Shown here in pieces: positions 19,001 to 39,634 of a DNA stretch of 64,000 nt. The stretch spans positions 21,183,597 to 21,247,596 of the forward strand of contig CM055901.1 in the NCBI GenBank assembly GCA_029582155.1, given 5' to 3'. Source of the DNA: Panopea generosa. Its lineage: Eukaryota; Mollusca; Bivalvia; Adapedonta; Hiatellidae. Position 1 is the first letter of the stretch. The number at the start of each line of letters is the position of its first letter. The position numbers and the translations under genes were made by a program. A model generated the notes under the pieces. That model did not search any database, was not told the DNA's origin, and saw only the letters and a list, made by a program, of their open reading frames with translations.

Positions 19001-22000
19001 GTCACCTCTGTTAAGCAATCATTCATTTTAAACAGCAACATTTTCTGTTTATCATTTTTTTAATTAGGTTTTAATCATCCTGTGTTAAGCAGCCACTAAT
19101 TTTTGTTCTTTTTCTTCAATGGCTGGAGTAGACAGGTACATAGAAGGTCAGGAACACCCTCACATCCTCATATCTGATAAAACCGGACTTTTAGAGATGT
19201 TTTAAATGACAACTAAACTTTAAGCAATAGTAGTAATTTTGAATTATTGATGATGATAAAACACATAAAACATATATTTTGTCAGAAAAACTTATTTATT
19301 TATTTTTTTTTAATAGGGTAAAACACATTTCAGGTTATATATGGCATATCCAGTTTCATTGGTGGATGAAGACCATAGAACAACCATCCTTCCGCAAGTA
19401 ACTGGCAAACTTTCTCACATAAAATTTTTGCAGGAAACTGGACTCAAACCTACAATCTTAGCAGTGAGAGGTAAGTGATCTTGAGATGGTGACAGAGGAC
19501 CCCAGTCTATTTTTAAATGTTGGCTATGTAATGGATGTGAACAAATAAACAATATTCAAAGGCCCCCATCAAAGATTTATAATCACAAAGTTTGATAAAT
19601 ATCAGCTTTTTTATTTTTTATTAAGCTTTTCAATGACATTTTTTAATGGATGGTGACAAGAACAGAAAACAATTGATAATGCAGGACAACAAGATACATG
19701 TAGTCCTGCAGTACAGCCTCAGACCCAGGATGGAGGAATCATGGGTTCCATCCTGTGCCACGGCTAAGTGTGGTGTTCTTGACACTACAAGTAATCACCA
19801 ATTTAACAAATAACTAAACCAAGTCCTATATTTCAAAACCCTTTCAGAGTATCAGAACAGTTGGGTTCAATATTGTAAATCTGACTTTTAATCAACCAAT
19901 CAATGAAGGGCACTGTGTCATGTGACCATACCTGTCTTGAACTCTCTTGGTACTGTCAATTTTATCAATATCCATGCGTATTTTGTAGGACAGCTGTTTG
20001 GGCTGTACTGTATTGTTCAGGTCATGCATATCAGGGTAGTGAAACTCCACTACTGACCAGAACAGGTCATTCTCTATCAAATTTAAACCATCATCCATCA
20101 TCTGTCGCTGGTCAGTGTACCCGACAAACTTGTCAAAGTTGAAGCACTGAAATGTACCAGAGTAAAACTAAAACATCTGCTTACATAACTATAGTATGAA
20201 TCATTTACTTAGATGTACCTTGCTATAATAAGCATCATTTACTTGCTTTGGTAAAACTGAAACATCTGCTTACCTGGCTATAATTAGAACAATTTACTAA
20301 CTTTGCAATAATAAGCATCATTTACTTGCCTTAGCAAAACTGAAACATCTTACATAACTATAATTTGAATAATATATTTGCTTTGTAAAGTTATAAATAT
20401 TTTCTTACCTTACAATATATATATTTACCCATATTAGTTAGACAGCTATAGTAAGAAACAATTGCAACCTTGCTAAAATTAGAAACAATTACTTAGCTAG
20501 AAACAAATGCTACTTATAATTAGAAACAATTTCTTACCTTGCTATAATTAGAAACTGTACTGAAGAGCATATTCAACATGTCAATGCTGTTTCTCCAATC
20601 ATAGTCTGCTGTTTTAGCGTCATTATTTAGAAACTGTTTAAGGAAAGCACAGGCATCACCACTGTACGTAGCATTAAATCTGGACAGAACAGCAGATTCC
20701 CCATACGAACACAATGAACTATCAACAATTGCCTGAAATTGTACAAAATTGCAAGTTTTTTATGTCAAAAAATAATATCTAGACTTTATGAAAATAGTCG
20801 CATTAAATGACCATTACCATTTTTAATTGATGATGGCAGGAAATTTCAGGATATAACCAAAATTACATTATTCCACGGGTCAGGTCTAATTAAAATATTG
20901 GCTATAATAAGGAGTTTAAATACAGTTTTTTTACTATAAAAACAGTATTTTACACCAGATACGATTCAGATAGTCGCAATTAAAGCTAAATATTATAAAC
21001 ATACCAGTGTTATATTGAGTGTAAAGTGTAGTATTTACTGATAATACCACTTTAATGTCGAATATAAAACTGCTGAAAGTTTTATCACTATACTTAACAA
21101 CTATCAAAAGTTCTCAATGTTTGCTGTTCTGGCAACTCAAAGGAACTTTCAAACAAAAGAACTTATTTATTTACAAACTGATCCACTAATATTTTATTCA
21201 TAAATATGCCACTTGAAATCGTATTTATAAAAACCTTTGCTGAAAACAATAAAACACTAATATCAGTGGAAATGGAAATCTTATTATTAATGGCTTCCTA
21301 CCCTGAGCGCTTCAACAGATCTGCTGTTGTTGAGAAAATCGAATATCACATCCGACGTGCTTTCCCATGCATCAGATAAATCACCGATGTTTTCTAAATC
21401 TTTGAAAAACTGTTGAGCCTGCAAAAGAAAATGTTATAGAAATGTGTCTGTTCACACAAATGCCCCCTCTCTTGATGTGTCTGTTCACACAAATGCTCCC
21501 TCTCTTGATGTGTCTGTTCACACAAATGCTCCCTCTCTTAACCTGATACCAGTTGTTGTTTTTTTTATCAAAAATGAAGTTGAAAATGGGTCATAACTCC
21601 TGTAGAATTTGACCAAATTGACAAATATCGAACTTGATTGACTTCTATTTTAAAATTATACAGGTACACAAGAAATATTAATTAAATTCATAGACCCCTT
21701 CAGAAGACTGCAGATACATTTGTGTGAACATCTGTAGAACCACTGTCCTTCCACAGGTAACTGACAATTTTTCCCACATAAAAAGTGTTTGGACCGAAAC
21801 AAGTTCGATACCTGGCAACAACATCAGTGGTGAGAGGTAAGTGACCTTGAGATGGTGCCTTAGATCACTTATGTTATTTTAGATAAGGAAATAAAGACAA
21901 AATCCTTACATTTTCTATAATCTCCTCGGTAACTGGGTTCTGCGGGTAGTACAGTATACATCCCCTGACAAATGGCTTTCAGCTGCCGCCAGATGATTCG

Positions 22001-25000
22001 TGAAGAACTACTACCTTTGTTAAACTGTTCAAACAAAACCTGACACTCCGCAGCTACAAGAAATATATTGTCACATTTTATTGTTTGCATTCAAATAACT
22101 GTAACATTTTACACAGGTGTAATATCATATGCCAGGTTTTATATTATAAATCATGCTATGTTTTATATTGTTATCATATGTTAAATTTCATATGATAACC
22201 CTATGGTAGGTTTCATTGTGATTATCGTATTTTTGGTTTCATGATTCACAATTGGTAGATTTCATATATTTATCATAATATGCAAGGTATCATTGTTAAA
22301 TGCTAGGCTTCATATGAGAATCATATATATCAGGCTTCATATGAGAATCACATATATCAGGCTTCATATGAGAATCATATATCAGGCTTCATATGAGAAT
22401 CATATATTAGGCTTCATATGAGAATCATATATATTAGGCTTCATATGAGAATCATACTTTATTTTGTATGCTAGTTTTCATAAAGAGAAGCATATAAAAT
22501 TATAAGGCTTCATATGGGAATCATACCATGTATACTAGGCTTCCTACAAGAATCATATACTATTTTTTTTTATTATTATGAACAGTTTTATATGATTCTC
22601 ATATTCTAGGTTGTATATGAGAATCAGGGGATGTGAGTTCGATCCCTGCCTGAAACAGTCTAAGACTGATATATGACAATTGTCAGTCATCTCTCACTGC
22701 TGATTCAAGTGGAAAAAGATATCAGTTACATGCAGAGATGGCTGCACATGAGTACTGTTTAAGTGGTCAGGTTAACTGATCTTCTGTTAGCTCTCAATGG
22801 CATAAAAATGACGCGAAACATTCAAAGAAACAAAACATATGTGAAAAAAAAGAGAATCATTTGTGACCCTATTGCCTGTACCTTAAACAGTTTTGAACCT
22901 GTAGAATTATAAACTTACTTGTCTCTCGAACACAGGCTCTGTCTTTTAATCTGGCGGATGTTGCACTGGTAGATGAAACTGGTTGCTGCGTGGACGTTGG
23001 CATAGTTGGGCTCGCAGTCGTAGTCGTTGACGGGGCAGTAGTGGTTTTTGCAGATGGTAAATCAGGATTAATTGTATTTTTGTCCCTATTACCAAGGGCA
23101 TCTTCTTCATTTTCATCCATGGACAAGAACGACCCTTCACGCCCACACACTAACAGGTTCATGACTGAGGAAAGACTGCTGCTGGCTTGATCACTTATTG
23201 GACCGGTACTTTTGGCAACTTCAGCTTGTATCTGTTGAATGGTTTCCATGAGGTCTTGTAAGGGCTTTTGCCACGTGTCCGTTTGTCTTAACTGTGAACG
23301 GTAGATAATATTTAATTTAGTTTATTTTACTTTGATTATGAAACAAGTTATTACAACTTATACAAATCACGCTTGAAGTCTTCCTGGGTAGAACCAGTAC
23401 TAAGCATATGTGGAAAAAGTGTCTTGTTTAAAGAAACCACATAGCCGTGGCAGAGGATCGAACCAATGACCCTTCAATCCTAGATTTGATATTCTACCAC
23501 TGGATAATGCACTCCACAATAGTATTTGTTTGATTTTCTCTATAGAGATAATATATATAAAATAATTTAAAGTATTAAATAGATGATCTTACACAAGTTC
23601 TCACTAATTTATTAACAAGTTGATAAAAATATATAATATGAGACTCCATCATGCATTATGGTGAATTAATTTTGCCAGTGAATTTAATAGATTTTATAAT
23701 AAACGAGTACTAATATAATATCCTATTTATCATGCAGCTGAGAAAAATGGTAAAATTTCTATTTTGAACTCATTCCTTTCAGGAACGAGAACAAAATTAC
23801 TTTTCAAAGATGATATAAATAACACTATGCATAAGTAGTTTCACAAACCATTTTAAGATATCACATCTAAATATAATGTCATTTACATCAAACAACATCA
23901 ATTAGATGTAGTCAAGTCAGAAAATATCTCTCTATTTTACGTATGAGAGATGAGATATACTGACAACTACAATGGATGAATTTGTGGCAATATAAAACTA
24001 GGTTAATATCTAATATATGTCAAGAGTTTATTACACTTCTGCACCTCTAATTATGTTATATTCAATGCATATTATCTCATAAAACAGGCTGGATCTTCTG
24101 CCAGCACCAAATCTATAATTGTTTTAATAAATTACAACGAGCCAAGTTTTGATTAATACACAAAACCACTGACCCGTTTGCTGTGCAGTGCTACCGGTGA
24201 CTTTTTTCTCAGCTATGCAAGTTTTGCATATCAAATTATTTTTTTATTAAATGTTATTTTCAATGTCTACAGAATTCAATGTCTATCAAAATGTTATCAT
24301 TTGATACTATAACATCAATTACATATTTTAAGACATGGTTTATACTTTATTAGAGTAGGTGGGGATGTGGATATTGGTGTGGATTGGTTCTAAGGGGGAG
24401 TGGATTGGGGGTGGGGTCTACTTACATCATTATACAGCTGGAGTGAAGTTAATAATGGGGCTGACCCAACATTATTCAATACAAAGGCACTAATCTGTTA
24501 AATAGACATTCATAGCATTATTACATGTATGTATCATAATAGCATTATTACATGTAAGTATCATAACAGCATTATTACATGTATGTATCTTCTGATAAAT
24601 CTACAGCTTGTTACTTTTATAAAATTGATTTATTCTACATCAATTCATACCACTTAGAAAAATCTCACTGACATATGCTGAGGTAAACCCAGTACGAAGC
24701 ATAAAAGTAGATAAAGTGTTTTGTTCAAGGACACTATCTCACTTTGCAGTAGACGAGGATCGAACACATGACCCTCTGATCCCTGGGTTTAATATCGGCT
24801 GGCATGTCACCAATATTTTTTATTTGTATCAAACCTCATAACCACATGTCTAAAATAAACTTTTAATAAAATGTCAAATGTAAAGCAAGGTATGCTTAAA
24901 AAATTCCCATATTTTTTTAATTTTCAGCTGCTTGTTTCGTTGTTTTGTTGTTGCTTGCTAGAATGTTTCAATTTGAAAAATAACTCTTTGTCCTCAATAC

Positions 25001-28000
25001 AAATCTTATAAAAAAAAAATCAATTAAATTGCTTATCAGTTTTAAATGCTTAGATATTGACAATCTTTTGTAATATAAACAATGTTGTTGTTGTATGGTG
25101 TTAAATGTCACTTTAAAAAGTCAGCATTAAACTGACTAAAGGGCCGACCAGGCCTAGAACTATCCTCTAAATGCTGAATGCCAAGTGAGAAAGCTTCTAG
25201 TACCAGTTTTCAAGTCTTTGGTATGACCCGGCTGGGAATCGAACCCACATGCGAGATGGACACTCTATTACTAGACAATGCTGCAGCTGACATACTTAGA
25301 TTTGATAATTATTTTGTAATATAAACAAAAGTAGCACTAGAGTAACATATAAATACAGCACAAGTGTAACATATCAATACAGTGCAAGTGTCAAATATCA
25401 GTATAGCACAAGTGTAATATTTCAATACAGCACAAGTTCAACATATCAGTATAGCACAAGTGTAACATATCAGTATTAGCACATGTGTAAGATATCAATA
25501 CAGCACAAGTGTAACATATCAATACAGCACAAATGTAACATATCAATACAGCACAAGTGTAACATATCAGTATAGCACAAGTGTAACATAAATACAGCAC
25601 AAATGTAACATATCAATACAGCACAAGTGTAACATATCAGTATAGCATATGTGTAAGATATCAATACAGCACAAGTGTAACATATCAATACAGCACAAAT
25701 GTAACATAACAATACAGCACAAGTGTAACATAACAATACAGCACAAGTGTAACATATCAGTATAGCACATGTGTAAGATATCAATACAGCACAAGTGTAA
25801 CATATCAATACAGCACAAGTGTAACATATTAATACAGCACAAGTGTAACATATCAATACAGCACAAATGTAACATAACAATACAGCACAAATGTAACATA
25901 TCAATACAGCACAAGTGCAACATATCAATACAGCACAAGTGTAACATATTAATACAGCACAAGTGTAACATATCAATACAGCACAAGTGTTACATATCAA
26001 TGTAGAACAAGTGTTACATATCAATATAGCCCAAGTGTAACATATCAAAATAGCACATGTGTAACATATCAATACAGCACAAGTGTAACATGTCAATATA
26101 GCCCAAGTGTAACATATTAATATAGCATATATGTTACATATGAATACAGCAGAAGTGTAACATATCAATACAGCACAAGTGTAACCTATTAATATAGCAG
26201 AAGTGTAACATATCAATATATCAACAGTGCAACAAGCAAAACAGCACAAGTGTAACATATCAGTATAGCACAAGTGTAACATATCAGTATAGCACAAGTG
26301 TAACATATCAATACAACACAAGTGTAACATATCAATATAGCACAAGTATAACATATCAATATAGCACAAGTGTAACATAACCCTATAGCACAAGTGTAAC
26401 TTATCAATACAGCACAAGTGTAACATATTAATACAGCACAAGTGTAACATATCAATACAGCACAAGAGTAACATAACAATACAGCACAAATGTAACATAT
26501 CAATACAGCACAAGTGCAACATATCAATACAGCACAAGTGTAACATATTAATACAGCACAAGTGTAACATATCAATACAGCACAAGTGTTACATATCAAT
26601 GTAGAACAAGTGTTACATATCAATATAGCCCAAGTGTAACATATCAATATAGCACATGTGTAACATATCAATACAGCACAAGTGTAACATGTCAATATAG
26701 CCCAAGTGTAACATATTAATATAGCATATATGTTACATATGAATACAGCAGAAGTGTAACATATCAATACAGCACAAGTGTAACCTATTAATATAGCAGA
26801 AGTGTAACATATCAATATATCAACAGTGCAACAAGCAAAACAGCACAAGTGTAACATATCAGTATAGCACAAGTGTAACATATCGGTATAGCACAAGTGT
26901 AACATATCAATACAACACAAGTGAAACATATCAATATAGCACAAGTGTAACATATCAATATAGCACAAGTGTAACATAACCCTATAGCACAAGTGTAACT
27001 TATCAATACAGCACAAGTGTAACATATTAATACAGCACAAGTGTAACATATCAATACAGCACAAGAGTAACATATTAATATAGCCCAAGTGTAACATATT
27101 AATGTAGAACAAGTGTAACATAACAATATGGCACAAATGTAACATATTAATATAGCACATATGTAGCATATCAATACAACACAAGTGTAACCTATCAATA
27201 CAGCACAAATGTAGCATATTTATATAGCACAAGTGTAACATGTCAATACAGCACAAGTATAACATTTCACTATAGCACAAGTGTAACATATCAATACAAC
27301 ACAAGAGTAACATATCAATATAGTCCAAGTGTAACATATCAATATAGCACAAGTGTAACATAACCTTATAGCACAAGTGTAACATATTAATACAGCACAA
27401 GTGTAACATATTAATACAGCGCAAGTGCTAACATATCAATACAACACAAGTGTAACATATCACTATAACACAAGTGTAACATATCAATACAACACAAGTG
27501 TAACATATCACTATAACACAAGTGTAACATATCAATACAACACAAGTGTAACATATCAATATAGCACAAGTGTTACATAGTAATATAGCACGAAAGTAAC
27601 TTATTAATACAACACAAGTGTAACATATCAATATAGCACAAATCTAACATATCCTTATACTTACTTCTTCAAGAAAAGCTATTGTGTTGAAATCCTGAAC
27701 AAAATCATTCACAAGTGCATAGAAGTCATTTGGAGACAGACCACAGAGCTCTCTATGAACGTTGTCCGCGACCGTGTCATTTGGGAACCAGAATATCTCC
27801 TTAAGCCTTGTCTCGTTACACACTTCCTGTCTGATATACGTTATTGTGTCATTCTCATTGGTAAAAGTTGGCGGTAAAAATGAAGACAGTATCGTTATCA
27901 AAGATGTCTCATTCAATCCATCCTGGAAAAGCTGAAGATGGATACAAATATTCAAAAACTGTTGCTGTATGGTGTTTAGCATCGCTTTCAACAATTTTTT

Positions 28001-31000: not shown

Positions 31001-34000
31001 ACAATTAGACCTGTTACTATCTGATAATAATTTTTATACTGATTTTCACCCGCACAATAATCTATCCTTAGACAACAAACAAACAAACATTTAATTTATT
31101 TTTTTGTTTTTATTTTCATGTTGGCCTTATCATAATTGAAATGTATTTAAGAATCCTATTTGATAGACAGATAATAATAACATTTAAAATGAGGCATTTT
31201 TTGAAGATTTTACAACAGTATAACCAAGCCTTCTAAGCCATCCCTAGCAAAAACATCATGCTGGCTGGTTCCCATAACATCATTGAAGTGATGTCAAATT
31301 GCCTTCACATCAGGGTTAATTATAAATGATAATATTATGTGATGTGCTGAGGTATATACAGACAGGGTATGGCATCACGTGGTCATCACATGGTCACATA
31401 ACCACACAGCACATCATTGTATCTACTTACTTGCTGGGGAAGCATGTTGTGACTTATACAGCAATGAGTCATTTATTTATATATATGTCACCATGGCACT
31501 AATTTCAAGTATGAGCTATTACAGAATCAAAATCTTCATAAACTACGAACAACTTGATGGAAATCATTAACTTAATTTGTATATATAATATCAATGTAGA
31601 AAGAGTTGTCAAACAACTAAACCAACCCTATACTATATTGCTTGGTTAATCCTACAACATCTATACCAACAACAATTCCTCCATACTTATTTATTTTTGC
31701 TCAACACAATGTAACTCAGAGATGTAGTGAAACTCTCTCCAGTCCATTTTCTGGATAGAACCTGCAGTATTATATGTTGTTTGTTGAGCGGCCATTGGGT
31801 AAACATGGGACTTTATAGTGACCTCTATCCTGCACATCAAGCACACTATCCACAACATCACAACCTTGTTAAGTCCCTCAAACCAACCACACTTTTACTT
31901 ACAATGCTTGGTTAAACGTTTCCACTGCACCTGGCAGCTCATCAGCAGTAGCAGTTTCGTAGCATGTGTTGTTGAAGCTGCACATAAAAGACTGCATGAA
32001 TGGTAGAACACCAGCAGACGGCAATGCTTTACCATCAAAATGACCTGAAATATTAGTAATGAATGGTAGAACACCAGCAGACGGCAATGCTTTACCATCA
32101 AAATGACCTGAAATATTAGTAAAGAAGGTGCACATAAATGACTGCATGAATGGTAGAACACCAGCAGATGGCAATGCTTTACCATCAAAATGACCTGAAA
32201 TATTAGTAAAGAAGGTGCACATTAATGACTGCATGAATGGTAGAACACCAGCAGACAGCAATGCTTTACCATCAAAATGACCTGAAATATTAGTAAAGAA
32301 GGTACTCCTAAAATACTGCATGAATGGTAGAAGACCAGCAGACGGCAATGCTTTACCATAAAAATGACCTGAAATATTAGTAAAGAAGGTACGCCTAAAA
32401 TACTGCATGAATGGTAGAACACCAGCAGATGGCAAAGCTTTACCATCAAAAGGACCTGAAATATTAGTAAAGAAGGTGCACATAAATGACTGCATGAATG
32501 GTAGAACACCAGCAGACGGCAATGCTTTACCATCAAAATGAACTGAAATATAAGTAAAGAAGGTGCACATAAATGACTGCATGAAAGGTAGAACACCAGC
32601 AGACGGCAATGTTTTACCATCAAAATGACCTGAAATATTAGTAATTAAAGAAGGTGCACATAAATGACTGCATGAATGATAGAACACCAGCAGACAGGCA
32701 ATGCTTTACAATAAAAATGACCTGAAATATTAGTGAAGAAGGTACACGTCAAAGACTGCATGAATGGTAGAACACCAGTAGACGGCAATGCTTTACCATA
32801 AAAATGACCTGAAATATTAGTAAAGAAGGTACACGTCAAAGACTGCATGAATGGTAGAAGACCAGCAGACGGCAATGCTTTACCATTCAAATAACCTGAA
32901 ATATTAATGAAGAAGGTACATGTAAAAGACTGCATGGATGGTAGAACAGCAGACAGAAATGCCTTACCATCCAAATAACCTGAAATATTGGTGGAGAAGA
33001 CCATCTTTAAAATACCCAAAAATTGATTGTGTAACAACCAATATCAAGGAATAAAAATTGTAAAATTATGCATTTATCTGTGTTTTATATTACTTAGACA
33101 TTTAACATAGAGGTATAAAAAATATCTCCATCTTTCATAATTAAATACAAGTTAGTGTTAATATTTAACATAGTTTGTATGATATCGAGGGCTTACAGAC
33201 GATTAGTTTACTTAAGCACTCTTTGCTGTGATCCTGGTAAAACAAGTACTGGAGCACACCCATCTCAAGTAAATGATAACTATCCCACTTGAATCAGTGG
33301 TGAGAGAAAAATGACAATGACATGCAATGTTGTATATCAATCATCAGAGAGACTGTGGCTTGATATGGGATTCAAACTCACGACCCCTGGATTAAGAAAC
33401 AACTGACTGAGCTAACTGGACACAAATATTTTTATATAATTATTAACTATCTTGGTAATAACTGAATTTATAAGTTTATTTGTCTGATTTAATAATTAAC
33501 AAATAATACATACAGTGTTCTGCATATCAGTCCATAAATGATAACACATTTAGTCCAACTGACCAACCTGCAGATTTCATATACAGTGAGTTAAACCTGT
33601 CTTAATCTGAGCCAGGGAGTGAACAAAAGTGGTCTTTTAAGACAGGTTGTTACTTACTGGTAATACAGGTAAATTTGCCCTGAAAGCATAGAAATGGGAA
33701 TTAGCAAAATTTAATGTGGCTATTTAAGACAAGTGGCTGCTTAAATGAGGTGGCCACTTATGCAGGTTTGACTGTAAACTGGAAACCCTATGCCCTTGCA
33801 TTACTTGCATTAATAAACCAGTACTAACATTACAAAAGAAAATTTAAAAACAAGAAATGTCACTGTTAAGTGTCACATGCCCCCCCAAATGGTCTGTGAA
33901 AAATAACAATATATGATATAATAGGTAGTGATGTATATATGAATATCAAAGGTAATGGACTAATGTTTCAGACTAGTCATGCAATTCCATTTTTTTTTTT

Positions 34001-37000
34001 TTTTTTTTACATTAAAGCATGACCTTGACCTTTGTGTAACCTTGATTTTGACATCTGATGTAATGGTCTGGGTATTTCAACAGTTAAATGCAGGTGAAAC
34101 ATTATCATGACATGCTGATCACTTGTGTCAAGCTATTTTAAAATCCCTAAATGTAAGTTACAGATCAATTGTTGATCAATTGATAAATTGAGCCAAGTGT
34201 TTTTGAAATCCATCCATGCATGATAAAGTTATAGGACAGATGTGAAATTTCAAACAGATTCAAAGTGTTGTCATACATACTCAAAGTGTGACAGTGTGTA
34301 GGTTTTTCTTATGACATGTCGTCATGTCATCTTGATAAATTGAGCCAAGTTAAAGACAAAGTCACAGACCAGACACGCAATATCAAACAAATTGAAAGTG
34401 TGACCTTGACCTTTGAGGAAAGGTTCTGGGTCTTACATGCAACACTTAATTATGTCATGTTTATCAACTGAGCCTAGTGTTTTCAAAATATATCCATAGA
34501 TGACAAAGTTATAGATCGGACAAGAAATCTCACACAGACTGAAAGTGTTGTCAAACAAACTCAAAGTGTTACCTTGACCTTTGAGGTATGCATGTGGGTT
34601 TTACACGTGACACTTTGTAATGTCATGCTGATGAATTTAGCCAAGTGTTTTTGAAATTTATCTATAGGTGACAAAGTTTCAGACCGGACACGAAATCTCA
34701 ATCGGACTGAAAGTGTCATCAACCAATGTTAAATTGTGACCTTGACCTTTGAAGTGGGATTCTGGGTGTAACGTGTGACACATCGTCATGTTATGTCTCT
34801 CATTTGTAGCAAGTATCAACAAAATCCATCTATGCATGACTAAGTTACAGGCCGGATACAAAATCTCACACAAACTCAAAGTATTGTCAAACAAAGACAA
34901 ATTGTGACCATGACCTTTGAGGTACTGGTGTGGGTCTTACTCGCGACACGTCATCATGTTATGTTGATCATTTGTAGCAAGTATCAACAAAATCCATCTA
35001 TGCATGACAAAGTTACAGGCCGGAACAAAATCTCACACAAACTCAAAAGTGTTGTCAAACAAAGTCAAATTGTGACCTTGACCTTTGAGATACGGGTGTA
35101 GGTCTTACTCGCGACACGTCATCATGTTGTGTTGATCATTTGTAGCAAGTATCAACAAAATCCATCTATGCATGACAAAGTTACAGGCCGGAAACGAAAT
35201 CTCACACAAACTCAAAGTGTTGTCAAACAAAGTCAAATTGTGACCTTGACCTTTCAGGTACGGGTGTGGGTCTTACTCGTGACACGTCATCATGTTATGT
35301 TGATCACTTGTAGCAAGTTTCAACAAAATCGATCTATGCATGACAAAGTTACAGGCCGGAAACGAAATCTCACACAAACTCAAAGTGTTGTCAAACAAAC
35401 TGAAATTGTGACCTTGACCTTTGAGGTATGGGTGTGGTTCTAACTCGCGACACGTCATCATGTTATGTTGATCTCTTGTAGCAAGTTTCAACAAAATCCA
35501 TCTATGCATGACAAAGTGACAGGTCATCATGTTATGTTGATCACTTGTAGCAAGTATCAACAAAATCCATCTATGCATGACAAAGTTACAGGCCGGAAAC
35601 GAAATCTCACACAAACTCAAAGTGTTGTCAAACAAACTGAAATTGTGACCTTGACCTTTGAGGTTTGGGTGTGGGTCTTACTCGCGACACATTGTCATGT
35701 AATGTTGATCACTTGTAGCAAGTTTCAACAAAATTCATCTATATATGACAAAGTTACAGACCAGAAACGAAATACCAGACGGAAGGACGGACGGAAGTTC
35801 TCACCAATGGGTATTTAAGTGGCTTCTTTGCATCAATCGTATACTTGTGTGGCTGAATTTTAGAAAATTTTAGCCACATAAGAGAAAATAAGCCACATAA
35901 ATGCTGTTTTTTAAGTGTCTAGAAACAGCCCATAATTATTTTTCAACAGCTTTTCAACTGTCCATAAAAATTACTAACTCTAAACCCTAGACACTTAACT
36001 ACCCATTTGTTTGCCCGGACGGACAGACGGATGGACGGACGCTGCGATTACTATATGCCACCCAAAAATATTTTGGGGCGGCATAAAAATTTTTTTGGGG
36101 GGGGCATAAAAAAAATTGGGGGGGGGGGGGGGGCATAATAAGAGTTTATAATGAACCTTTTCTGCTTATTTTTATAAGGATTAAAAGCTATTTTCAAGAC
36201 ATGATAGGTTATATATGGCATCTACTGTTATTAGTTTATGCTAATTTATTGATAGCTTTATTGCGATGTTAACTCAGAGCTTACATGAATCACTCGATTC
36301 CATATCCTGGGTAGCACCAGTACCGAGTGCTGTTTTTTTAGGTCATTGGGTCAAGCTGGGATAAAACCTGCAACCTCATACATACATGCACAACACTATC
36401 CACTACACTACTGCAGACCTTTTTTGGGTGAGAAAAAAATCAGAATGTATTCATCCTTCCTCGTAGTAATTGACAAATTTTTCAATTTTTGTACCAAACT
36501 AGGCTCAAACCAATGACCTCATCAATGATTGGCAAGTGATACTGAGGCAACTCTTGGACAACTTGGCTACAGAAGACCCCTGTATACACAAAAACAGTGA
36601 CCGGTTGTGAAAAGAAGGATATATATACTAAGCAGTCTGAGGCATAATACAGTCAAACCTGTCTTAAGCAACATATCAAGGGTAGGAGCAAAGGTGGCTT
36701 TTAAGACAGGTTGTTGCTTAATACTGGTGAATTTGCTCTGAAAACATAGAAATGGGAAATAGCAAATGTGTCTGTTTAAGATAACACGCTGCTTAATAAA
36801 GGTGACTGCTTATACAGGTTTTATTGTAATTAATATTAATTTTACTTTTGTTGATGAATTTTAGAGATTTTTCAATGAATTATGTACTTGAGAAATAAAT
36901 ACGTGTTCATGAACTTTTATTGCGCTAGTAAACTACAAAATATAGACTTACACTCAGGGTGCTTGACCTTCAACTCGGGTTTTGTTAATCTGACAATCAC

Positions 37001-39634
37001 CAGGATTAAGAATAACGCCAATGGAAACACTATCTCGGAAACCAGGCGCAGCTACAAACAAGAATAACAAGGTAATTATATGCTTTTGTTATGGAAATTA
37101 TAATTACAAATGGATCAAATGAATAATTAATCAATGATCTGTTATCTAACATCACAAAAAATCTTTTATAGCAAACACATTATCTTTATCCATTCAAAGA
37201 ACCAAAATTAATATCTTTACAATTTTTTTCTTTGTTTTAACAGGTTTTACGCCATTTCCAACACATTTCAGGTTATATAATTATAACATTTTTAATGGTA
37301 GAGAAAGACCTCAGAATGAATCTGAGTAGAATCACTGTCCTTCGGGACTCAAAACTACAACCTTAGTGCTGAGAGGCAAGTGACCTTGTGACTATGCCTT
37401 AGACCACAGAGGACACTAATAAATATAGATCACATGGTCATGTAGTAGAGCATCAGATTCAGGATTTGAAGGTTGCGGGTGCAATTCTCCATCATGGTCA
37501 TGTGTTGTTGTGTCCATGAGTAAGACATTTATCTACATTTGCCTGGCCATTCTTAAAATGTTCACTTCATTATTTTTTTGTCATTCTGACACTGACATTA
37601 AAGGGAATATATCAGGATTTTTCAAAAAAAATTAATTTTTCCAATAAATCACGCCAATATAATACTCACTGACCCCGTATTGCCAAAAGCATATATGTTT
37701 ATAAATATGCCAAAACAATATATTGAAAATGGATTTCCTAACTTGGGCTACATGCCTAGGTAAGACATACCGTATATTCCCTAATTAACGCCCCTGGGGG
37801 CGTTACATTTTACAAGGTGGGGGCGTTTATAAAAGATAAAAAAAGCAAATTTAACAACAGTTAAAAATACTATAAAACCAATAAAGCCATGGAAAAAAAC
37901 TTAAATCCGGTTTAAATCCCCGAAAAAGTGGTTCAAAATTATTTAATAGTGAATGAAATAATCGACATAGGATGAAAAAAAGTTGAAAATCTGTATGAAA
38001 TTACTGGAATATCCGAAGTTATGGTCAGTGTACTCTTCACTTTAAATCACTTGGACGCTTGCTCTTATCAACGTGGAACAATGAGCTTTCAGCGTACACA
38101 GACTAACCGCATTTTCCGTCGTTTTGTAATGTTTTAATCGGCAGACGGTATTTGGTATATCTTGTGGTCACCCAAGATATAAACAATGGGTTAAAGAGTT
38201 CAAAGGTAATAAACATTCCGCTAATTGTTGTCTGCGTAACAAAATAATCGATTAGGGAAAGATGGGCGAATACACACTCAACTCGCATATACGTTTTATT
38301 TTTTAATTTTCCAGAAAAATAGGTGGGGGGGCGTTTATTAGAGTGGGGGCGTTTATAAGGGAATATACGGTAAATAGATTTCCAACTTTAAATTGCAACA
38401 TTTTTTGTGATGTATTAAATGAAGCACGTGATTTCATTTTTAATTCAATGCAGGATACACATTGTAAAAATTTTCTAAGAAAGAGTTTGAATGATGATAC
38501 AAAGGTTGTCAAGCAGTATTTAAGTGGTGTCTATTTTTAGAATGGGGATTTCATTTCAATTTACCACTCCAGCTGAAACATTGATTTTGTCACATTTTGG
38601 TGAATTTGCTATACAAACCAATCCAATTTTATTTAAAAGGGAAAAATAAGACACCACAACATCATTGCTATTAATATCTCAAATTTAGAAAATAGCCAAA
38701 TTTGACCTCTATGTTTCATTCATTATAAACTGCATCTCCTTTTTTACAGATTTATTTTTCAAGTCAACAAATAAAAAAAATCTGGCCTTAGTACTGGTTC
38801 TTCCCAGGTAATTATTGTGTGTTATTTGTTTATGAGGTAAAAACTTGTTTCACAATCAACATAAATCAAATAGGTTTAAATAAATAATGCTTGAAAAAAA
38901 AACAATGTACCTATTTTACCACTTATACATTTAAAGTTATTTTTTTAACATTGAATGTGGAAAAAATAATTCAACTTTTAAAAAGCATGCTCACCAGTAC
39001 TTCCTGGGTAGAACCAGTACTATACATATATGCAAATAAGGGGCCTTATTAAAAAAACAAAAAACAGGCATGGCCATGGTGGTGGATCGTATCCACAACC
39101 TGGAGATCCTCAGTCTGGTGTTCTTCTACCACACCAGGCCCTTCAAGTAAACATGTAATACAACTGATTATAAAACATTTAAACCTTAAATCTTTTGTAT
39201 TGATAACACATATTCCGATATTCAAGGAAATATAACCTCTGTAACATTTATTACCAGCCTCAGTAAGCTCATATCATTCATGTTGCTACAATAGCCACCA
39301 TCTTTTGTAGCTATTTGCACATTGGTCATTTTTTACTTCCATCCATATATTATTTCAAAAGTCGTTTTGCACATAGTTTGGTAAATAGACATTATTTCAT
39401 TTTATACTAAACAAAAAAATTAATGCTATATAAGTCTCGATAAAAATTTGGTAATTTAGCAACTTTAAAGTTAAAAGATCTTGACACAAAAATAGCCATC
39501 AAAATGAAATTATATTTAATACTAGAATGGACTACAATAATTTTGAAAATAAATTTAAAATATGTTACCTTTTGTCTTTTTCGTAATGTAAAGTTCTTCC
39601 ATAGAAGCAGCAGCAGCTGATTGAAGAACCCCAT
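910..39634 (-). CDS. ABCA1-like: ABCA1-like ABC transporter, 5' half, 23 coding exons (partial: 3' half is outside the window)
   Basis: Full-size ABCA-family transporter; family members move or flop lipids (phospholipid, sterol, retinoid) across plasma or vesicle membranes using ATP. Joined exons encode ~1,275 residues: N-terminal [15 protein letters not shown] followed by the first membrane helix (residues ~30-43), ECD1 (~45-700), membrane helices (~706-925) and NBD1 with Walker [10 protein letters not shown] (~1011-1019), Q-loop CPQHN (Q ~1058), signature LSGGM (~1110), Walker [13 protein letters not shown] (D ~1134), H-loop STHH (H ~1166). The segment [11 protein letters not shown] and the NBD end [12 protein letters not shown] resemble ABCA1; YARRAIW and [14 protein letters not shown] resemble ABCA2, so I assign the ABCA1/2/4/7 clade rather than a strict orthologue. 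Exon phases match those I recall for human ABCA1. ECD1 carries a Thr/Ser-rich insertion. A 1-nt insertion in exon 9 breaks the frame in this sequence, so the locus is either a null allele or contains an assembly error. Promoter and any non-coding first exon were not found. Confidence 0.93.
1056..1178 (-). mobile_element. MITE M1 fragment (TACAGTCAAACCTG ends)
   Basis: Contains AAGTGGTCACCTCTATTAAG and ends GACAGGTTTGACTGTATA, shared with the full copies at 5247, 33588, 36648 and 63272. Confidence 0.7.
1198..1362 (-). repeat. SINE (family C)
   Basis: Reverse of the family with 'ACTGGTTCTACCCAGGAAGC ... AGCGGTTCATATAAGCTC', also at 55320, 63080 and 36240. Confidence 0.75.
1700..1925 (-). repeat. 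SINE (family A) next to exon 22 donor
   Basis: Family A copy ending 25 bp from the donor of ABCA exon 22. Confidence 0.65.
1950..2209 (-). CDS. ABCA1-like: ABCA exon 22 (NBD1 H-loop and start of linker)
   Basis: 260 nt, acceptor TGTTATTACAG|GACGCA, donor GTACTG|GTGAGG. Encodes [40 protein letters not shown] and GYYLTLVRG, then a charged linker [14 protein letters not shown]. The donor is inferred; the frame stays open 45 nt further, so the 3' border is the least certain part. Confidence 0.9.
2283..2448 (-). repeat. SINE (family A)
   Basis: Contains CTCAGACCACTCAGCCACGGAGGACC, i.e. the reversed tRNA Ser/Leu-like A-box head. 2449-2760 shows nothing recognisable. Confidence 0.7.
2763..3035 (-). 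repeat. SINE (family B)
   Basis: Diverged near-full copy of the 40018-40300 family, ending 55 bp from exon 21. Confidence 0.7.
3091..3228 (-). CDS. ABCA1-like: ABCA exon 21 (NBD1 signature and Walker B)
   Basis: 138 nt, identical to the human exon length I recall. Acceptor TATATTTCAG|GTGGCA, donor AAAG|GTTTGT (weak). Encodes [20 protein letters not shown] then [24 protein letters not shown] is Walker B plus catalytic Glu. Confidence 0.97.
3243..3420 (-). repeat. SINE family E tail fragment
   Basis: 'GAATGTATGGTGTTTTGAGT ... GATATAATACCCCACCCAGT' matches the non-tRNA part of 27957-28270. Confidence 0.6.
3556..4085 (+). mobile_element. MITE M2 copy (TTAAAGGGAATATATCAGG ends)
   Basis: Starts AAAGGGAATATATCAGGATT and contains TGGGCTACGCGCCTAG. 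Related copies at 30253, 37600, 46638 (inverted), 48170 and 49680. Confidence 0.75.
4196..4335 (-). CDS. ABCA1-like: ABCA exon 20 (NBD1 helical subdomain)
   Basis: 140 nt, acceptor GATATTTCAG|CCTCAC, donor CTGTCTG|GTAGGT. Encodes [20 protein letters not shown] and [12 protein letters not shown], then STNLSG, the first half of the LSGGM signature, split by the intron as in human. Confidence 0.96.
4500..4665 (-). repeat. Dispersed repeat, inverted relative to 16785-16945
   Basis: TTGTTTGTCCAAGTAAA and CAACTTGTTTGATTGACAG are reverse complements of sequence at 16810-16950. Confidence 0.55.
4715..4925 (+). repeat. SINE (family A)
   Basis: tRNA-like head GTGGCCAAGTGATCTAAGG then the family A body. 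Open frames over it are not genes. Confidence 0.7.
5008..5206 (-). repeat. SINE (family B)
   Basis: Contains the reversed tRNA head 'CTCATGACCCCTGGATTGAA'. Confidence 0.7.
5247..5442 (+). mobile_element. MITE M1 copy
   Basis: Begins TAGTCAAACCTGTCTTTAAG and ends ACACAGGTTTGACTGTATA: terminal inverted repeats of ~14 bp. 5443-6052 shows nothing recognisable. Confidence 0.8.
6053..6184 (-). CDS. ABCA1-like: ABCA exon 19 (NBD1, Q-loop)
   Basis: 132 nt, identical to the human exon length I recall. Acceptor ATAATTGTAG|GTCTAT, donor GACCT|GTAAGT. Encodes [20 protein letters not shown] then [17 protein letters not shown]; the Gln of CPQHN is the Q-loop residue. Confidence 0.96.
6248..6410 (+). repeat. 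SINE (family C, diverged)
   Basis: GAGGTCGTGGGTTCGAATCC (tRNA B-box) then 'AACACTGGTTCTGGTTCCAT'. Confidence 0.65.
6525..6870. repeat. Two-copy tandem repeat, ~165 bp unit
   Basis: 'CAAACTTTTGACCTTCAAAG ... TTCATTCAATAGTTTAACAG' recurs as 'CAAACCTTTGACCTTACAAT ... TTCATTCAATAGTCAAACAG'. Confidence 0.7.
6942..7119 (-). CDS. ABCA1-like: ABCA exon 18 (NBD1, Walker A)
   Basis: 178 nt, acceptor CATTTCTCAG|ACCCAG, donor ACCAT|GTAAGTG. Encodes [40 protein letters not shown] and [17 protein letters not shown] is the Walker A nucleotide-binding loop of NBD1. Confidence 0.96.
7490..8075. repeat. 24-bp minisatellite in intron 17
   Basis: ~24 units of ATTTCATTATCCACAATATC plus TGTG. Because the unit is 8 codons, several frames stay open on both strands (e.g. 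repeated DIVDNEIT); these are artefacts. Confidence 0.92.
8157..8273 (-). CDS. ABCA1-like: ABCA exon 17 (linker to NBD1)
   Basis: 117 nt, phase 1/1. Acceptor GTTGACCAG|GTCAGT, donor GACAAG|GTAAAC. Encodes (G)[17 protein letters not shown] then [20 protein letters not shown]; matches QYGIPRPWYFPCTKSYWFG. Confidence 0.94.
8425..8685. repeat. ~31-bp minisatellite, 8 units
   Basis: Unit AATGTATCCATCCCTTTAAT plus CAACCCATATT. Confidence 0.85.
8851..9059 (+). repeat. SINE (family A), best tRNA head
   Basis: TGGCCGAGTGGTCCAAGGC at 8863 is a tRNA Ser/Leu-type A box and GGTTCAAGTTC at 8921 a B box; the body follows. No proper cloverleaf, so not a tRNA gene. Confidence 0.75.
9057..9365 (-). repeat. 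SINE (family E)
   Basis: Reversed tRNA-like head at the right (GGGATTGAACCCACAACCTT); the tail matches 27957-28270 closely. Confidence 0.8.
9535..9752 (+). mobile_element. MITE M1 copy (diverged)
   Basis: Contains AAGCAAAAGTGGCCTTTTTA and AAGACAAGTGGCTACTCAAT. Confidence 0.7.
9839..10043 (-). CDS. ABCA1-like: ABCA exon 16 (first membrane domain)
   Basis: 205 nt, identical to the human exon length I recall. Acceptor ATATTTTCAG|AGCCTG, donor TTTCCTG|GTATGC. Encodes [33 protein letters not shown] and [17 protein letters not shown]; matches [20 protein letters not shown] and [15 protein letters not shown]. Confidence 0.95.
10200..12270. repeat. Tandem array, ~650-bp unit, ~3.2 copies
   Basis: Landmarks repeat at ~650-bp spacing: 'GTATAGTCTCCTATG' at ~10328, 10960, 11605 and 12236, 'ACATGTGTCCCCTAAT' types and 'GGCCATCTTGAA'. 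Starts with ACAAGAGGCCCAAGAGGGCC, typical of mollusc dispersed repeats. No open frame. At 12300-12790 are three shorter repeats of CACAAAAAGTCCCTTGAGAC. Confidence 0.88.
12904..13125 (-). CDS. ABCA1-like: ABCA exon 15 (first membrane domain)
   Basis: 222 nt, identical to the human exon length I recall. Acceptor CTCCTTTCAG|GTTGGC, donor GCAGTG|GTAAGT. Encodes [20 protein letters not shown] and [12 protein letters not shown], matching FLISTLFSRANLAA and IIYFTLYLPYV. Confidence 0.95.
13370..13580. repeat. Dispersed 'CATAACTCCTGTA' repeat
   Basis: Same family as 21570-21725 (GGGACCATAACTCCTGTAAC / GGGTCATAACTCCTGTAGAA). Confidence 0.55.
14100..14750. repeat. Diverged copies of the 'GTGACCTTGAYCTTTGA' tandem element
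   Basis: Related to 33850-36060. Followed at 14755-14838 by a reversed SINE-B head fragment. Confidence 0.6.
15027..15249 (-). CDS. ABCA1-like: ABCA exon 14 (first membrane domain)
   Basis: 223 nt, identical to the human exon length I recall. Acceptor AATTACAG|ATTCATG; donor CTCAAG|GTTTGA, a weak donor. Encodes [40 protein letters not shown] and [10 protein letters not shown], i.e. membrane helix 2, the conserved EKE-RLKE coupling segment and helix 3. Confidence 0.95.
15395..16120. mobile_element. Dispersed element with inverted internal copies
   Basis: TTTCTTTCATACCAAAAACACTGAATAATT at 15578 recurs inverted near 16040-16100 and directly at 46470-46510. Carries several CGTCA / TGACGT motifs. 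No coding potential. Confidence 0.5.
16313..16776 (-). repeat. Two tandem SINE family A copies
   Basis: Copies at 16313-16523 and 16570-16776 share 'CAACAAATGATAGTTTTATC' through 'GATCACTTTGCCA'. The 16785-16945 block after them is the repeat also found inverted at 4500. Confidence 0.75.
17200..17660. repeat. Direct duplication, ~95 bp, 340 bp apart
   Basis: 'GGTTTGCATTGTAGCTAG...CACGCTCCC...TTATTCAC' at 17220-17320 and again at 17558-17650. 17660-18480 shows nothing recognisable. Confidence 0.7.
18502..18687 (-). CDS. ABCA1-like: ABCA exon 13 (ECD1 to first membrane domain)
   Basis: 186 nt, acceptor TATTCACAG|ATACTA, donor GATAA|GTGAGT, phases 2/2. Encodes [20 protein letters not shown] then [15 protein letters not shown]...[18 protein letters not shown], matching WGGFAYLQDVVEQAII and MPYPCYVDD of ABCA1. 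This is the open copy of the duplicated pair. Confidence 0.94.
18748..18933 (-). pseudogene. Decayed duplicate of ABCA exon 13
   Basis: 186 nt, exactly the length of exon 13, with acceptor TTGTTCCAG|GTACTGG, donor GATAA|GTAAGT and the same phases. Encodes [20 protein letters not shown] then [12 protein letters not shown], a stop (TAG), [26 protein letters not shown], a stop (TAA), DK. The conserved Cys of PYPCY is Arg here. Both splice sites persist although the frame is closed. Confidence 0.92.
18985..19145 (-). mobile_element. MITE M1 copy, partial
   Basis: 'GCGTAAGTGGTCACCTCTGT ... GGCTGGAGTAGACAGGTACA'. Confidence 0.6.
19310..19503 (-). repeat. SINE (family A)
   Basis: Family A body and reversed head. 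19504-19930 holds only a weak tRNA-like SINE D fragment (19700-19790). Confidence 0.65.
19932..20146 (-). CDS. ABCA1-like: ABCA exon 12 (end of ECD1)
   Basis: 215 nt, acceptor GTACATTTCAG|TGCTTC, donor GACAG|GTATGG, phase 0/2. Encodes CFNFDKF...[13 protein letters not shown]...[17 protein letters not shown]; the motif YKIRMDID is near-identical in ABCA1. Confidence 0.93.
20160..20537 (-). repeat. Diverged tandem copies of the exon 11 donor region
   Basis: The sequence over the exon 11 end and its donor (TCTAATTATAGCAAGGTAAG) recurs in the intron as ~30-60 bp units starting near 20205, 20270, 20345, 20400, 20465 and 20510 (minus strand). The copy at 20269-20292 still has an intact AG|GTAAG. 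Confidence 0.7.
20538..20732 (-). CDS. ABCA1-like: ABCA exon 11 (ECD1)
   Basis: 195 nt, phase 0/0. Acceptor AATTTCAG|GCAATT, donor AGCAAG|GTAAGA. Encodes [19 protein letters not shown]...[12 protein letters not shown]...[20 protein letters not shown]. Matches the DIVAFLAKH...[20 protein letters not shown] region of ABCA1 in layout. Confidence 0.88.
21302..21418 (-). CDS. ABCA1-like: ABCA exon 10 (ECD1)
   Basis: 117 nt, the same length as I recall in human; acceptor TCTTTTGCAG|GCTCAA, donor CTCAGG|GTAGGA. Encodes [20 protein letters not shown]...[14 protein letters not shown], matching [20 protein letters not shown] of ABCA1. Confidence 0.92.
21440..21875. repeat. 36-bp triplicate, dispersed repeat and SINE A fragment
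   Basis: TGTGTCTGTTCACACAAATG plus CTCCCTCTCTTGA three times (21443-21540); a 'CATAACTCC' repeat (21570-21725); a reversed SINE A piece (21735-21875). 20733-21300 shows nothing recognisable. Confidence 0.7.
21910..22053 (-). CDS. ABCA1-like: ABCA exon 9 (ECD1) carrying a 1-nt frameshift
   Basis: 144 nt, acceptor TTTCTTGTAG|CTGCGG, donor GAAAAT|GTAAGG. The first frame gives [20 protein letters not shown] then WRQL; the next frame gives [20 protein letters not shown] then IEN. Both parts match consecutive ABCA1 sequence ([20 protein letters not shown]), so the frame slips by one at the AAA run at 21977-21979. 143 nt would restore the phases of the neighbours. Confidence 0.88.
22290..22480. repeat. 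~25-bp minisatellite in intron 8
   Basis: Unit AGGCTTCATATGAGAATCAT plus ATATC, about 7 copies, with diverged copies on each side (22120-22620). Confidence 0.8.
22620..22826 (+). repeat. SINE (family B)
   Basis: GGATGTGAGTTCGATCCCTG then the family B body. Confidence 0.7.
22919..23291 (-). CDS. ABCA1-like: ABCA exon 8 (ECD1 with mucin-like Thr/Ser insertion)
   Basis: 373 nt, acceptor CCGTTCACAG|TTAAGA, donor GACAA|GTAAGT, phases 0/1. Starts with [20 protein letters not shown] and has LLVCGREG, matching the VCGHPEG motif of ABCA1. It then holds an acidic stretch ([10 protein letters not shown]) and a Thr/Ser/Pro run ([20 protein letters not shown]...) at residues ~380-410 that ABCA1 lacks; it looks like an O-glycosylated mucin-type linker. 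Confidence 0.88.
23375..23515 (-). repeat. SINE (family D)
   Basis: 'TTCCTGGGTAGAACCAGTAC ... GGCAGAGGATCGAACCAATG'; sister copies at 24655-24795 and 38990-39145. 23516-24420 has nothing else recognisable. Confidence 0.7.
24426..24494 (-). CDS. ABCA1-like: ABCA exon 7 (ECD1, short exon)
   Basis: 69 nt, phase 0/0, acceptor TCTATTTAACAG|ATTAGT, donor AATGAT|GTAAGT. Encodes [20 protein letters not shown] then YND. Weak similarity on its own; supported by clean splice sites, phase and its position between exons 6 and 8. Confidence 0.72.
24655..24795 (-). repeat. SINE (family D)
   Basis: Reversed tRNA B-box GAGGATCGAACACATGACCC. A 32-bp triplicate (CATTATTACATGTATGTATC) precedes it at 24510-24595. 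Confidence 0.65.
25083..25283 (-). repeat. SINE (family E, internally deleted)
   Basis: 'TTGTTGTATGGTGTTAAATG' joined to 'GGGCCGACCAGGCCTAGAAC' and the reversed tRNA head. Confidence 0.7.
25335..27655. repeat. 24-bp minisatellite (~97 units) with 599-bp higher-order repeat, intron 6
   Basis: Unit CAGCACAAGTGTAACATATC plus AATA. A 599-bp block (about 25861-26460) is repeated almost exactly at 26460-27060; the unique marker TCAACAGTGCAACAAGCAAA occurs at 26221 and 26820. Unit is 8 codons, giving frames of up to 403 aa (CCIDMLHL repeats) that are not genes. Ends ~10 bp from the donor of exon 6. Confidence 0.95.
27665..27922 (-). CDS. ABCA1-like: ABCA exon 6 (ECD1, longer than usual)
   Basis: 258 nt, phase 0/0. 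Acceptor CAGCTTTTCCAG|GATGGA, donor GAAGAA|GTAAGT. Contains [19 protein letters not shown], matching the SELCGLPREKL region of ABCA1. About 27 residues longer than the human exon, with sequons NET and NDT. The 24-bp minisatellite abuts its 3' border (ends ~27655). Confidence 0.9.
27957..28270 (-). repeat. SINE (family E), full
   Basis: Reads on the minus strand from a tRNA-like head (GCGTGGTCTAGTGGTAGAGC; GGTTCAATCCC box) to the ATGGTGTTTAG tail. 35 bp from the exon 6 acceptor. 28271-28988 shows nothing else recognisable. Confidence 0.85.
28989..29107 (-). CDS. ABCA1-like: ABCA exon 5 (ECD1)
   Basis: 119 nt, acceptor TTATTTCTAG|GCAACATT, donor ACAAAG|GTATGC. Encodes (G)[18 protein letters not shown] then [21 protein letters not shown], aligning with the ECD1 segment NLSLPKSTVDKML of ABCA1; three N-glycosylation sequons (NIT, NLT, NVT). 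Confidence 0.9.
29190..29582 (-). repeat. 37-bp duplicate and SINE (family B)
   Basis: GAAGAACAGATAATGTACAT twice (29200-29275); diverged SINE B at 29370-29582. Confidence 0.65.
29625..29905 (-). repeat. SINE (family E)
   Basis: Diverged copy of 27957-28270, head at the right. Confidence 0.75.
30118..30251 (-). CDS. ABCA1-like: ABCA exon 4 (ECD1)
   Basis: 134 nt, phases 2/1 matching human exon 5. Acceptor is ATATTCCCTTTAAG|GTTGAC, donor GTTG|GTAAGTG. Encodes [20 protein letters not shown] and on to [13 protein letters not shown], with one NNT sequon. The acceptor tract coincides with the end of a TTAA-type MITE starting at 30253. Confidence 0.85.
30253..30780 (+). mobile_element. MITE M2 copy forming the exon 4 acceptor
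   Basis: TTAAAGGGAATATATCATGA starts two bases outside ABCA exon 4; internal match to 3556-4085 (ATTGCCAAAA..., GGCTACGCGCCTAGGTTAGA). Confidence 0.8.
30855..31025 (-). repeat. SINE (family B, diverged)
   Basis: Reversed head GATTTGAACTCACAACCCCT. 31026-31900 has no other recognisable element. Confidence 0.65.
31903..32044 (-). CDS. ABCA1-like: ABCA exon 3 (ECD1; terminal copy of an 87-bp exon array)
   Basis: Acceptor TAATATTTCAG|GTCATTTT, donor GCATT|GTAAGT; 142 nt, the length I recall for human exon 4. Encodes (C)[17 protein letters not shown], a segment strongly conserved in ABCA1, then [19 protein letters not shown]. Only this copy continues into the full exon and its donor; eleven further acceptor+partial-exon copies lie upstream (32045-33010), so acceptor choice could vary. 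Confidence 0.92.
32045..33010 (-). repeat. Tandem array of 87-bp partial copies of ABCA exon 3 with its splice acceptor
   Basis: First exonic bases after a TTTCAG-like acceptor recur (counting exon 3 itself) at 32044, 32107, 32194, 32281, 32368, 32455, 32542, 32629, 32721, 32808, 32895 and 32979: spacings 63, then 87 x6, 92, 87, 87, 84. Each unit encodes [17 protein letters not shown] + [12 protein letters not shown] (29 codons), where TNISG is the translated polypyrimidine tract and AG. Units from 32629 down to exon 3 form one open frame. The unit starting at 32721 has a +1 insertion and stops. None of these copies has its own donor, so they can be used only as alternative 3' splice sites. 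Confidence 0.93.
33180..33425 (-). repeat. SINE (family B)
   Basis: Full-length diverged copy with reversed head CAAACTCACGACCCCTGGAT. Confidence 0.7.
33588..33778 (+). mobile_element. MITE M1 copy
   Basis: Ends GCAGGTTTGACTGTA; internal 'GACAGGTTGTTACTTACTGG'. Confidence 0.75.
33850..36075. repeat. Tandem element, ~170-bp unit, ~9 copies
   Basis: Unit marked by TGTGACCTTGACCTTTGAGG and TCCATCTATGCATGACAAAG. Units at 34880-35780 are most alike; earlier ones diverge. Ends with GACGGACAGACGGATGGACG and the TGCCACCCAAA tail, then G-rich 36080-36140. Open frames here are repeat artefacts. Confidence 0.9.
36172..36582 (-). repeat. SINE A split by SINE C
   Basis: SINE C (36240-36428) lies inside a SINE A whose parts are 36172-36235 and 36430-36582. 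Confidence 0.6.
36648..36830 (+). mobile_element. MITE M1 copy
   Basis: ACAGTCAAACCTGTCTTAAG ... ATACAGGTTTTATTGTA. Confidence 0.8.
36952..37051 (-). CDS. ABCA1-like: ABCA exon 2 (first transmembrane helix)
   Basis: Acceptor TTCTTGTTTGTAG|CTGCGC, donor GAGT|GTAAGT. Encodes [20 protein letters not shown] then [13 protein letters not shown], i.e. membrane helix 1 and the entry into ECD1. 100 nt, ends in phase 1 so that the T combines with GT of exon 3 to make a conserved Cys. No open-frame call covers it on this strand; it was found by translating around the splice signals. Confidence 0.93.
37243..37418 (-). repeat. SINE (family A)
   Basis: 'CATTTCAGGTTATATAATTA ... GACCACAGAGGACAC'. A tRNA-like SINE D fragment follows at 37440-37560. 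Confidence 0.65.
37600..38640 (+). mobile_element. MITE M2 interrupted by a Tc1/mariner-like MITE
   Basis: M2 left part 37600-37767 and right part 38373-38640 are contiguous in other copies (...CCTAGGTTAGA|AATAGATTTCC). Confidence 0.75.
37768..38372. mobile_element. ~605-bp TIR element with TA ends (Tc1/mariner-like MITE)
   Basis: Left TACCGTATATTCCCTAATTA, right GGGAATATACGGTA: ~25-bp inverted repeats including ACGCCC/GGGCGT; flanking TA fits a TA duplication. No transposase. Confidence 0.75.
38990..39145 (-). repeat. SINE (family D)
   Basis: ACTTCCTGGGTAGAACCAGT ... GGTGGATCGTATCCACAACC. 39146-39568 shows nothing recognisable. Confidence 0.65.
39569..39634 (-). CDS. ABCA1-like: ABCA exon 1 (start codon, residues 1-22)
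   Basis: 66 nt from ATG to the donor AAAAG|GTAACAT. Encodes MGFFNQ...[12 protein letters not shown], the conserved ABCA amino terminus just before the first membrane helix. An upstream in-frame GTG exists, but the ATG gives the family length of 22 residues for this exon. Phase 0. Confidence 0.93.

Follow-up and report, generated by a model that had tools for sequence, protein, structure and literature searches.

Exon 3 of an ABCA gene in the bivalve Panopea generosa is preceded by a tandem array made of its own 5' part and of the adjoining end of intron 2. This array is probably a boundary-spanning minisatellite (a 'mirage'), whose 11 upstream copies would act as intronic decoys. The window, i.e. 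the whole stretch of DNA that was analysed, comprises 64,000 nucleotides (positions 21,183,597 to 21,247,596 of contig CM055901.1, assembly GCA_029582155.1). The initial annotation of the window had described a minisatellite composed of a splice acceptor and coding sequence in the ECD1 of an ABCA protein, and this description was right.

Host gene and structure of the array

An ABCA1/4/7-type gene lies on the minus strand of the window, which contains its 5' half. The joined exon translations (a query of 1046 residues) matched ABCA1 with an E-value of 1.7e-247. The aligned segments comprised query residues 3-118, 414-905 and 903-1046 (residues 119-413 are not among the alignments shown), which correspond to the N-terminal stretch, the last part of ECD1 together with the transmembrane region, and a portion of NBD1. 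Seventeen exons were mapped, all of them followed by GT and all except exon 1 preceded by AG. An eighteenth exon, with its acceptor at 2209, had its 3' side cut off by the mapping, and the exon map leaves out the C-terminal half of the gene as well as the exons between 9.8 and 4.3 kb. In 2-kb steps, the GC content of the window ranges from 30 to 44% and is mostly around 35%. In the genome, a search for COX1 gave no match, nor did one for a mollusc haemocyanin domain, for which the control genomes gave no signal either. The exons referred to below are the following:

39569..39634, minus strand: exon 1, from its ATG (exon mapping)
36952..37051, minus strand: exon 2, 100 nt, last base T (exon mapping)
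31903..32044, minus strand: authentic exon 3, 142 nt, 3' of the last acceptor; its donor GTAAGT begins at 31902
21910..22053, minus strand: exon 8, in which the ABCA1 homology shifts reading frame near 21978

Searched by itself, exon 3 matched ABCA4, ABCA1 and ABCA7 with E-values of about 1e-9. The junction of exons 2 and 3 splits a Cys codon into T and GT; this Cys aligns with that of ABCA1 ECHF, and the translation of the two joined exons aligns to ABCA1 HE-C-HFPNKAMPSAG. As assembled, the gene may be damaged, given the frame change in exon 8. Just upstream of exon 12, a dead duplicate of it was observed (18932-18726, 43% to ABCA1, with stop codons).

The array in front of exon 3 is made up as follows:

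32980..33010, minus strand: end of intron 2 ahead of unit 1 (direct reading)
32045..32979, minus strand: upstream copies, units 1-11, each combining ~67 nt from the start of exon 3 with ~20 nt from the end of intron 2
32979, 32895, 32808, 32721, 32629, 32542, 32455, 32368, 32281, 32194, 32107 and 32044, minus strand: the 12 TATTTCAG acceptors
32630..32721, minus strand: unit 4, 92 nt, with +1 and +4 insertions (unit alignment)
32045..32107, minus strand: unit 11, 63 nt, shortened by 24 nt (an in-frame loss) relative to the 87-nt unit

Twelve tandem copies of the acceptor and the start of exon 3 had been claimed, and all were found on the minus strand between 32979 and 32044, the acceptors being located with TATTTCAG as the search key. 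The spacing, described as mostly 87 bp, has this value in 8 of the 11 intervals (in order 84, 87, 87, 92, 87 six times, and 63). TRF reported a period of 87, 10.7 copies and 91% matches with a score of 1432, plus a 63-bp pair; this score rules out chance similarity of the copies. A typical unit consists of ~20 nt of the intron 2 end (CTTCTTTACTAATATTTCAG) and ~67 nt of the exon 3 start, the latter having been underestimated at ~57 nt. As had also been recognised, only the 32044 copy continues into the remainder of exon 3 and its donor. Unit 11 supplies the present upstream context of the authentic exon 3 acceptor and is identical to the next unit across the part that they share.

Unit 1 is the most diverged, with 82-88% identity to all the others, which are 87-100% identical among themselves. 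Some changes are common to neighbouring units (2 and 3, 7 and 8), and the indels are of mixed size (-24, -3, +1 and +4). This pattern is the usual minisatellite turnover with an excluded edge unit. The genome search covered 1.47 Gb in 39 contigs of one assembly and gave a single match to the array, with no second copy among the best candidates scored. Exon 3 of the paralogue at C2:66926039 carries no array.

The tetranucleotide CTTC stands both in the exon (GCAGCTTCAAC) and in the intron sequence that precedes unit 1 (GGTCTTCTCCACC), which makes it the likely breakpoint microhomology. We infer that a first tandem duplication, probably at this 4-nt CTTC, fused the start of exon 3 to the end of intron 2, and that slippage or unequal exchange would then have grown the array to 12 units. 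The last copy is the authentic exon 3; the acceptors of the other 11 look usable. The main splice junction is most likely 36952 to 32044, so that the extra copies would be excised with intron 2, and occasional leaky splicing to neighbouring in-frame copies may occur.

Splice signals, reading frame and codon changes of the units

Acceptor strength was assessed with a profile built from the 16 other acceptors of the gene. AG is present in 12 of 12 units, and the array acceptors scored 5.3-8.8, compared to 0.3-11.0 (leave-one-out) for the 16 others. The authentic acceptor at 32044 reached 6.7, within the 5.3-8.8 of the other 11; it is not favoured by score, and therefore acceptor strength alone predicts no winner. 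Our best guess is nevertheless 32044, because the published amphioxus cases are reported to splice normally. All 12 units also contain GT at the same place, 12 nt past the acceptor, usually as ATG followed by GTAAAG. When compared to the 17 mapped donors of the gene (range 2.4-10.2), this internal donor-like site scored 9.6 in unit 1 (ATGGTAAGG, GTAAGG), above 16 of the 17, but 4.7-4.9 in 10 of the 12 units (below 16 of the 17) and 2.2 in one (below all 17).

Splicing to any acceptor from 32629 to 32044 had been claimed to keep the frame, and translation bore this out: 8 of the 12 acceptors are open and would add 585, 498, 411, 324, 237, 150, 63 or 0 nt, i.e. up to 195 residues. Acceptors 32979, 32895, 32808 and 32721 lead into a stop. 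The +1 and +4 insertions attributed to the 32721 unit are present and close the frame for acceptors further upstream, as stated, but they close it for 32721 itself as well. The initial annotation had further assigned a sequon and a Cys to every unit. This was true in part, since NxS/T is gained in 6 of the 7 added units and Cys in 4 of the 7 (units 7, 8 and 11 have no Cys in the unit body), and use of acceptor 32542 would change the junction Cys to Phe.

The open frame had been presented as notable, a judgement that did not survive a simple calculation. The chance of an open unit is ~0.2, from 1/3 for a period that is a multiple of 3 and ~0.6 for a stop-free 20-nt intron tail of 7 codons (hand arithmetic from the base composition). 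Because of this joint chance, and because a second frame of the consensus is open too, the openness is unsurprising. In-frame design was dropped as an argument, given the second open frame of the unit consensus and the mixed indels.

Relative to the consensus, the distinct substitutions of the units comprised 24 nonsynonymous and 7 synonymous changes (0.774; neutral expectation 0.753) and no stop, in a consensus-based count over 12 units, made with no tree and with the last unit trimmed to its exon part. The absence of stops is uninformative because the neutral stop share is 0.02. As the ratio is near neutral, there is no indication that selection maintains the copies as protein. The probability of at least 24 nonsynonymous changes among 31 was 0.0007 at omega 0.3, 0.036 at 0.5 and 0.18 at 0.7, and a weak protein constraint, of omega 0.7, may thus be compatible with the count. 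The conserved ABCA residues H, P and C are altered in several units. Variable columns numbered 3 of 21 in the acceptor part versus 24 of 66 in the exon part (Fisher P 0.064). The acceptor core, a motif that was also the search key, is free of variable columns (P 0.044 for 8 columns, 0.12 for 10). Selection on the acceptors was considered on these grounds and is not claimed, in view of the weak statistics and the double role of the core motif.

It is doubtful that the in-frame acceptors 32629-32044 are functional, in which case ABCA isoforms would carry between 0 and 195 additional residues beyond the first cysteine of ECD1. Frame is kept by 8 of the 12, all 12 lie within the score range of the 16 other acceptors of the gene, and every unit has an intact TATTTCAG core, although this motif also served as the search key. 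However, purifying selection on the unit codons was not seen, an open frame is expected at a chance of ~0.2, 4 of the 12 acceptors would yield a premature stop, and an insert would presumably separate the junction cysteine from the remaining ECD1; published mirages are reported to splice normally. A stronger version, in which the array would be a length dial adding 0, 21, 50, 79, 108, 137, 166 or 195 potentially glycosylated residues, with a ladder that would vary between individuals and an occasional unit 1 microexon, is distinctly unlikely. The decoy reading, for its part, has to accommodate the fact that no stop interrupts the frame from any of the last 8 acceptors, and that the lower variability of the acceptor part would fit a weak acceptor constraint. 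Moreover, neutral codon changes would be equally expected of a translated functionless peptide.

Alternatively, this individual or lineage could carry an inactive copy of the gene, in which the array and other lesions would simply be tolerated; we regard this as unlikely. The frame change in the ABCA1 homology near 21978 in exon 8 and the dead exon 12 duplicate with stops at 18932-18726 would agree with inactivity, but the AG and GT edges are intact at the 17 mapped exons (exon 1 having no acceptor), the joined exons of the 5' half retain strong ABCA homology, and the exon 8 change may stem from an indel in the assembly or in one allele. Very little probability is given to an early intron gain in which the units are spliced as 12-nt in-frame microexons between 75-nt introns. 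A GT at one fixed place in 12 of 12 units and the score of 9.6 in unit 1 speak for it, as does the potato RdRp gene, in which duplication of an intron-exon boundary led to a new intron via a cryptic GTAAG; against this, the donor-like site is weak in 11 units (2.2-4.9) and the same site stands in authentic exon 3. Least credible of all is an assembly artefact, by which the assembler would have expanded reads of one or few copies. The identity of the 63-bp unit to the next across their shared part is what such an error would leave, but the units diverge from one another by as much as 18%, each bearing substitutions and indels of its own, and changes are shared within sub-blocks (2-3, 7-8). The single genomic match among the best candidates scored, and the occurrence of similar arrays of different sequence at other exon edges, also argue against an artefact.

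Comparison with known systems

Amphioxus mirages are known in Adh3, the globins BflGb6 and BflGb9, troponin C and PGBD5, and they are reported not to disturb splicing, which for PGBD5 is a suggestion of the authors (PMC3087553, PMC3902484). Like the array described here, they repeat an intron-exon boundary in tandem, many of their units carry AG/GT signals, and their inner copies are homogenised whereas edge copies are excluded (PMC3087553, PMC3902484). BflGb6 is of the same type, consisting of an intron 3' end and an exon 5' part, with 6 and 3 units in two haplotypes. In the ABCA gene, the repeats span a boundary, the units contain splice signals, a single copy has the full exon, and a homogenised interior is combined with a divergent edge; the array is a further case of this known kind of repeat.

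The amphioxus units, given as 10-72, 60, 108, 157 and 150-160 bp, differ from the 12 x 87 bp found here in an ABCA gene with 8 in-frame acceptors. In addition, the amphioxus evidence includes RT-PCR and a second haplotype, whereas the present array is known from the sequence of one assembly. In the literature searched, with most subscription journals not covered, no mirages by that name were found outside cephalochordates.

Three other systems are comparable. The 37-bp repeats in intron 7 of human factor VII likewise place a splice site in an array of variable number with one site normally used, but there the donor is repeated and the most upstream one is used by oriented scanning, whereas here the acceptor is repeated (PMC6627357). 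In potato RdRp, an intron 3' end and an exon 5' part were also duplicated and the acceptor inherited; that case involves one extra copy and a new intron shown by RNA-seq, compared to 11 extra copies seen as DNA sequence here (PMC4974935). Human genes in segmental duplications likewise contain minisatellites, some of them at exon-intron boundaries, that shift intron/exon limits, although they concern recent paralogues, with an average unit of 30 bp and half of the variable repeats coding (PMC2812944).

Mirages have been proposed as raw material for new introns in the amphioxus papers. The ABCA array could be a testable system for how the spliceosome selects one of several nearly identical splice sites, and for an intron gain still under way. 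A length-variable receptor, if true, would matter more; what points to it so far is the open frame.

Other boundary repeats in the genome

Within the same gene, a second repeat was found at an exon edge:

20147..20537, minus strand: intron 10, 391 nt, packed with degenerate copies (about 12, ~28 nt each) of the end of exon 10 and its donor

The 12 copies cover 259 of 381 nt, and their number compares to a null mean of 2.2 and a maximum of 7 in 200 shuffles; the self-similarity of the intron peaks at lags of 28 and 55. TRF did not list this repeat, even when arrays down to a score of 30 were included. Several of the copies resemble an acceptor, a few bases and a donor. The boundary tests (n=30) comprised both ends of 15 introns, intron 15 (which spans the unmapped exons between 9.8 and 4.3 kb) and intron 17 being left out, and 2 of the 30 boundaries were positive, namely the exon 3 acceptor array and the intron 10 donor. 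A 23-boundary scan likewise had these two as its clear positives. A candidate repeat at the exon 3 donor was marginal in that scan (16 vs a null maximum of 15) and was rejected after the 30-boundary retest, where 8 of 100 shuffles equalled it.

Two further arrays in the gene lie near exons. A 24-bp, 97-copy minisatellite at 25333-27653 starts 12 nt past the end of exon 6 (27665) and does not contain the donor, and a 33-bp x 3 array at 21442-21539 stops 24 nt short of exon 9 (21418).

At other ABC loci, an ABCA paralogue at C2:60.83 Mb carries a 13.5 x 55-bp array of an exon end and its GTAAGT donor (82% matches), and at C2:95.71 Mb the end of an ABC exon is duplicated together with its GTGAGC donor (2 x 106 bp). 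The latter duplicate differs by 2 mismatches only and is therefore recent. The first of these arrays (C2:60829400-60830300) sits right behind the exon, and many of its later units have ATAAGT instead of GTAAGT.

An array across the edge was present in 2 of 39 exon matches at other ABC loci, a sample restricted to ABC genes (20 matches in paralogue stretches and 19 to ABC_tran, some with stops). This is a lower bound, as homology may end short of the true edge. Arrays with a period of 12 or more occupy 12.6% of the 220,279 bases examined at ABC loci. Set against this coverage, 2 of 39 means that exon edges do not look like array targets; if anything, arrays are rarer there. The boundary repeats look like chance births tolerated by splicing, and the exon 3 array together with the three further boundary repeats suggests repeated origin in a genome where minisatellites are abundant. 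This recurrence at exon edges looks like repeated minisatellite birth and not like a length-tuning receptor switch.

At C12:44573422-44574540, a 33-bp x 34 array nearly fills the intron between two ABCA exon matches, and both of its ends lie less than 50 nt from the aligned portions of these exons.
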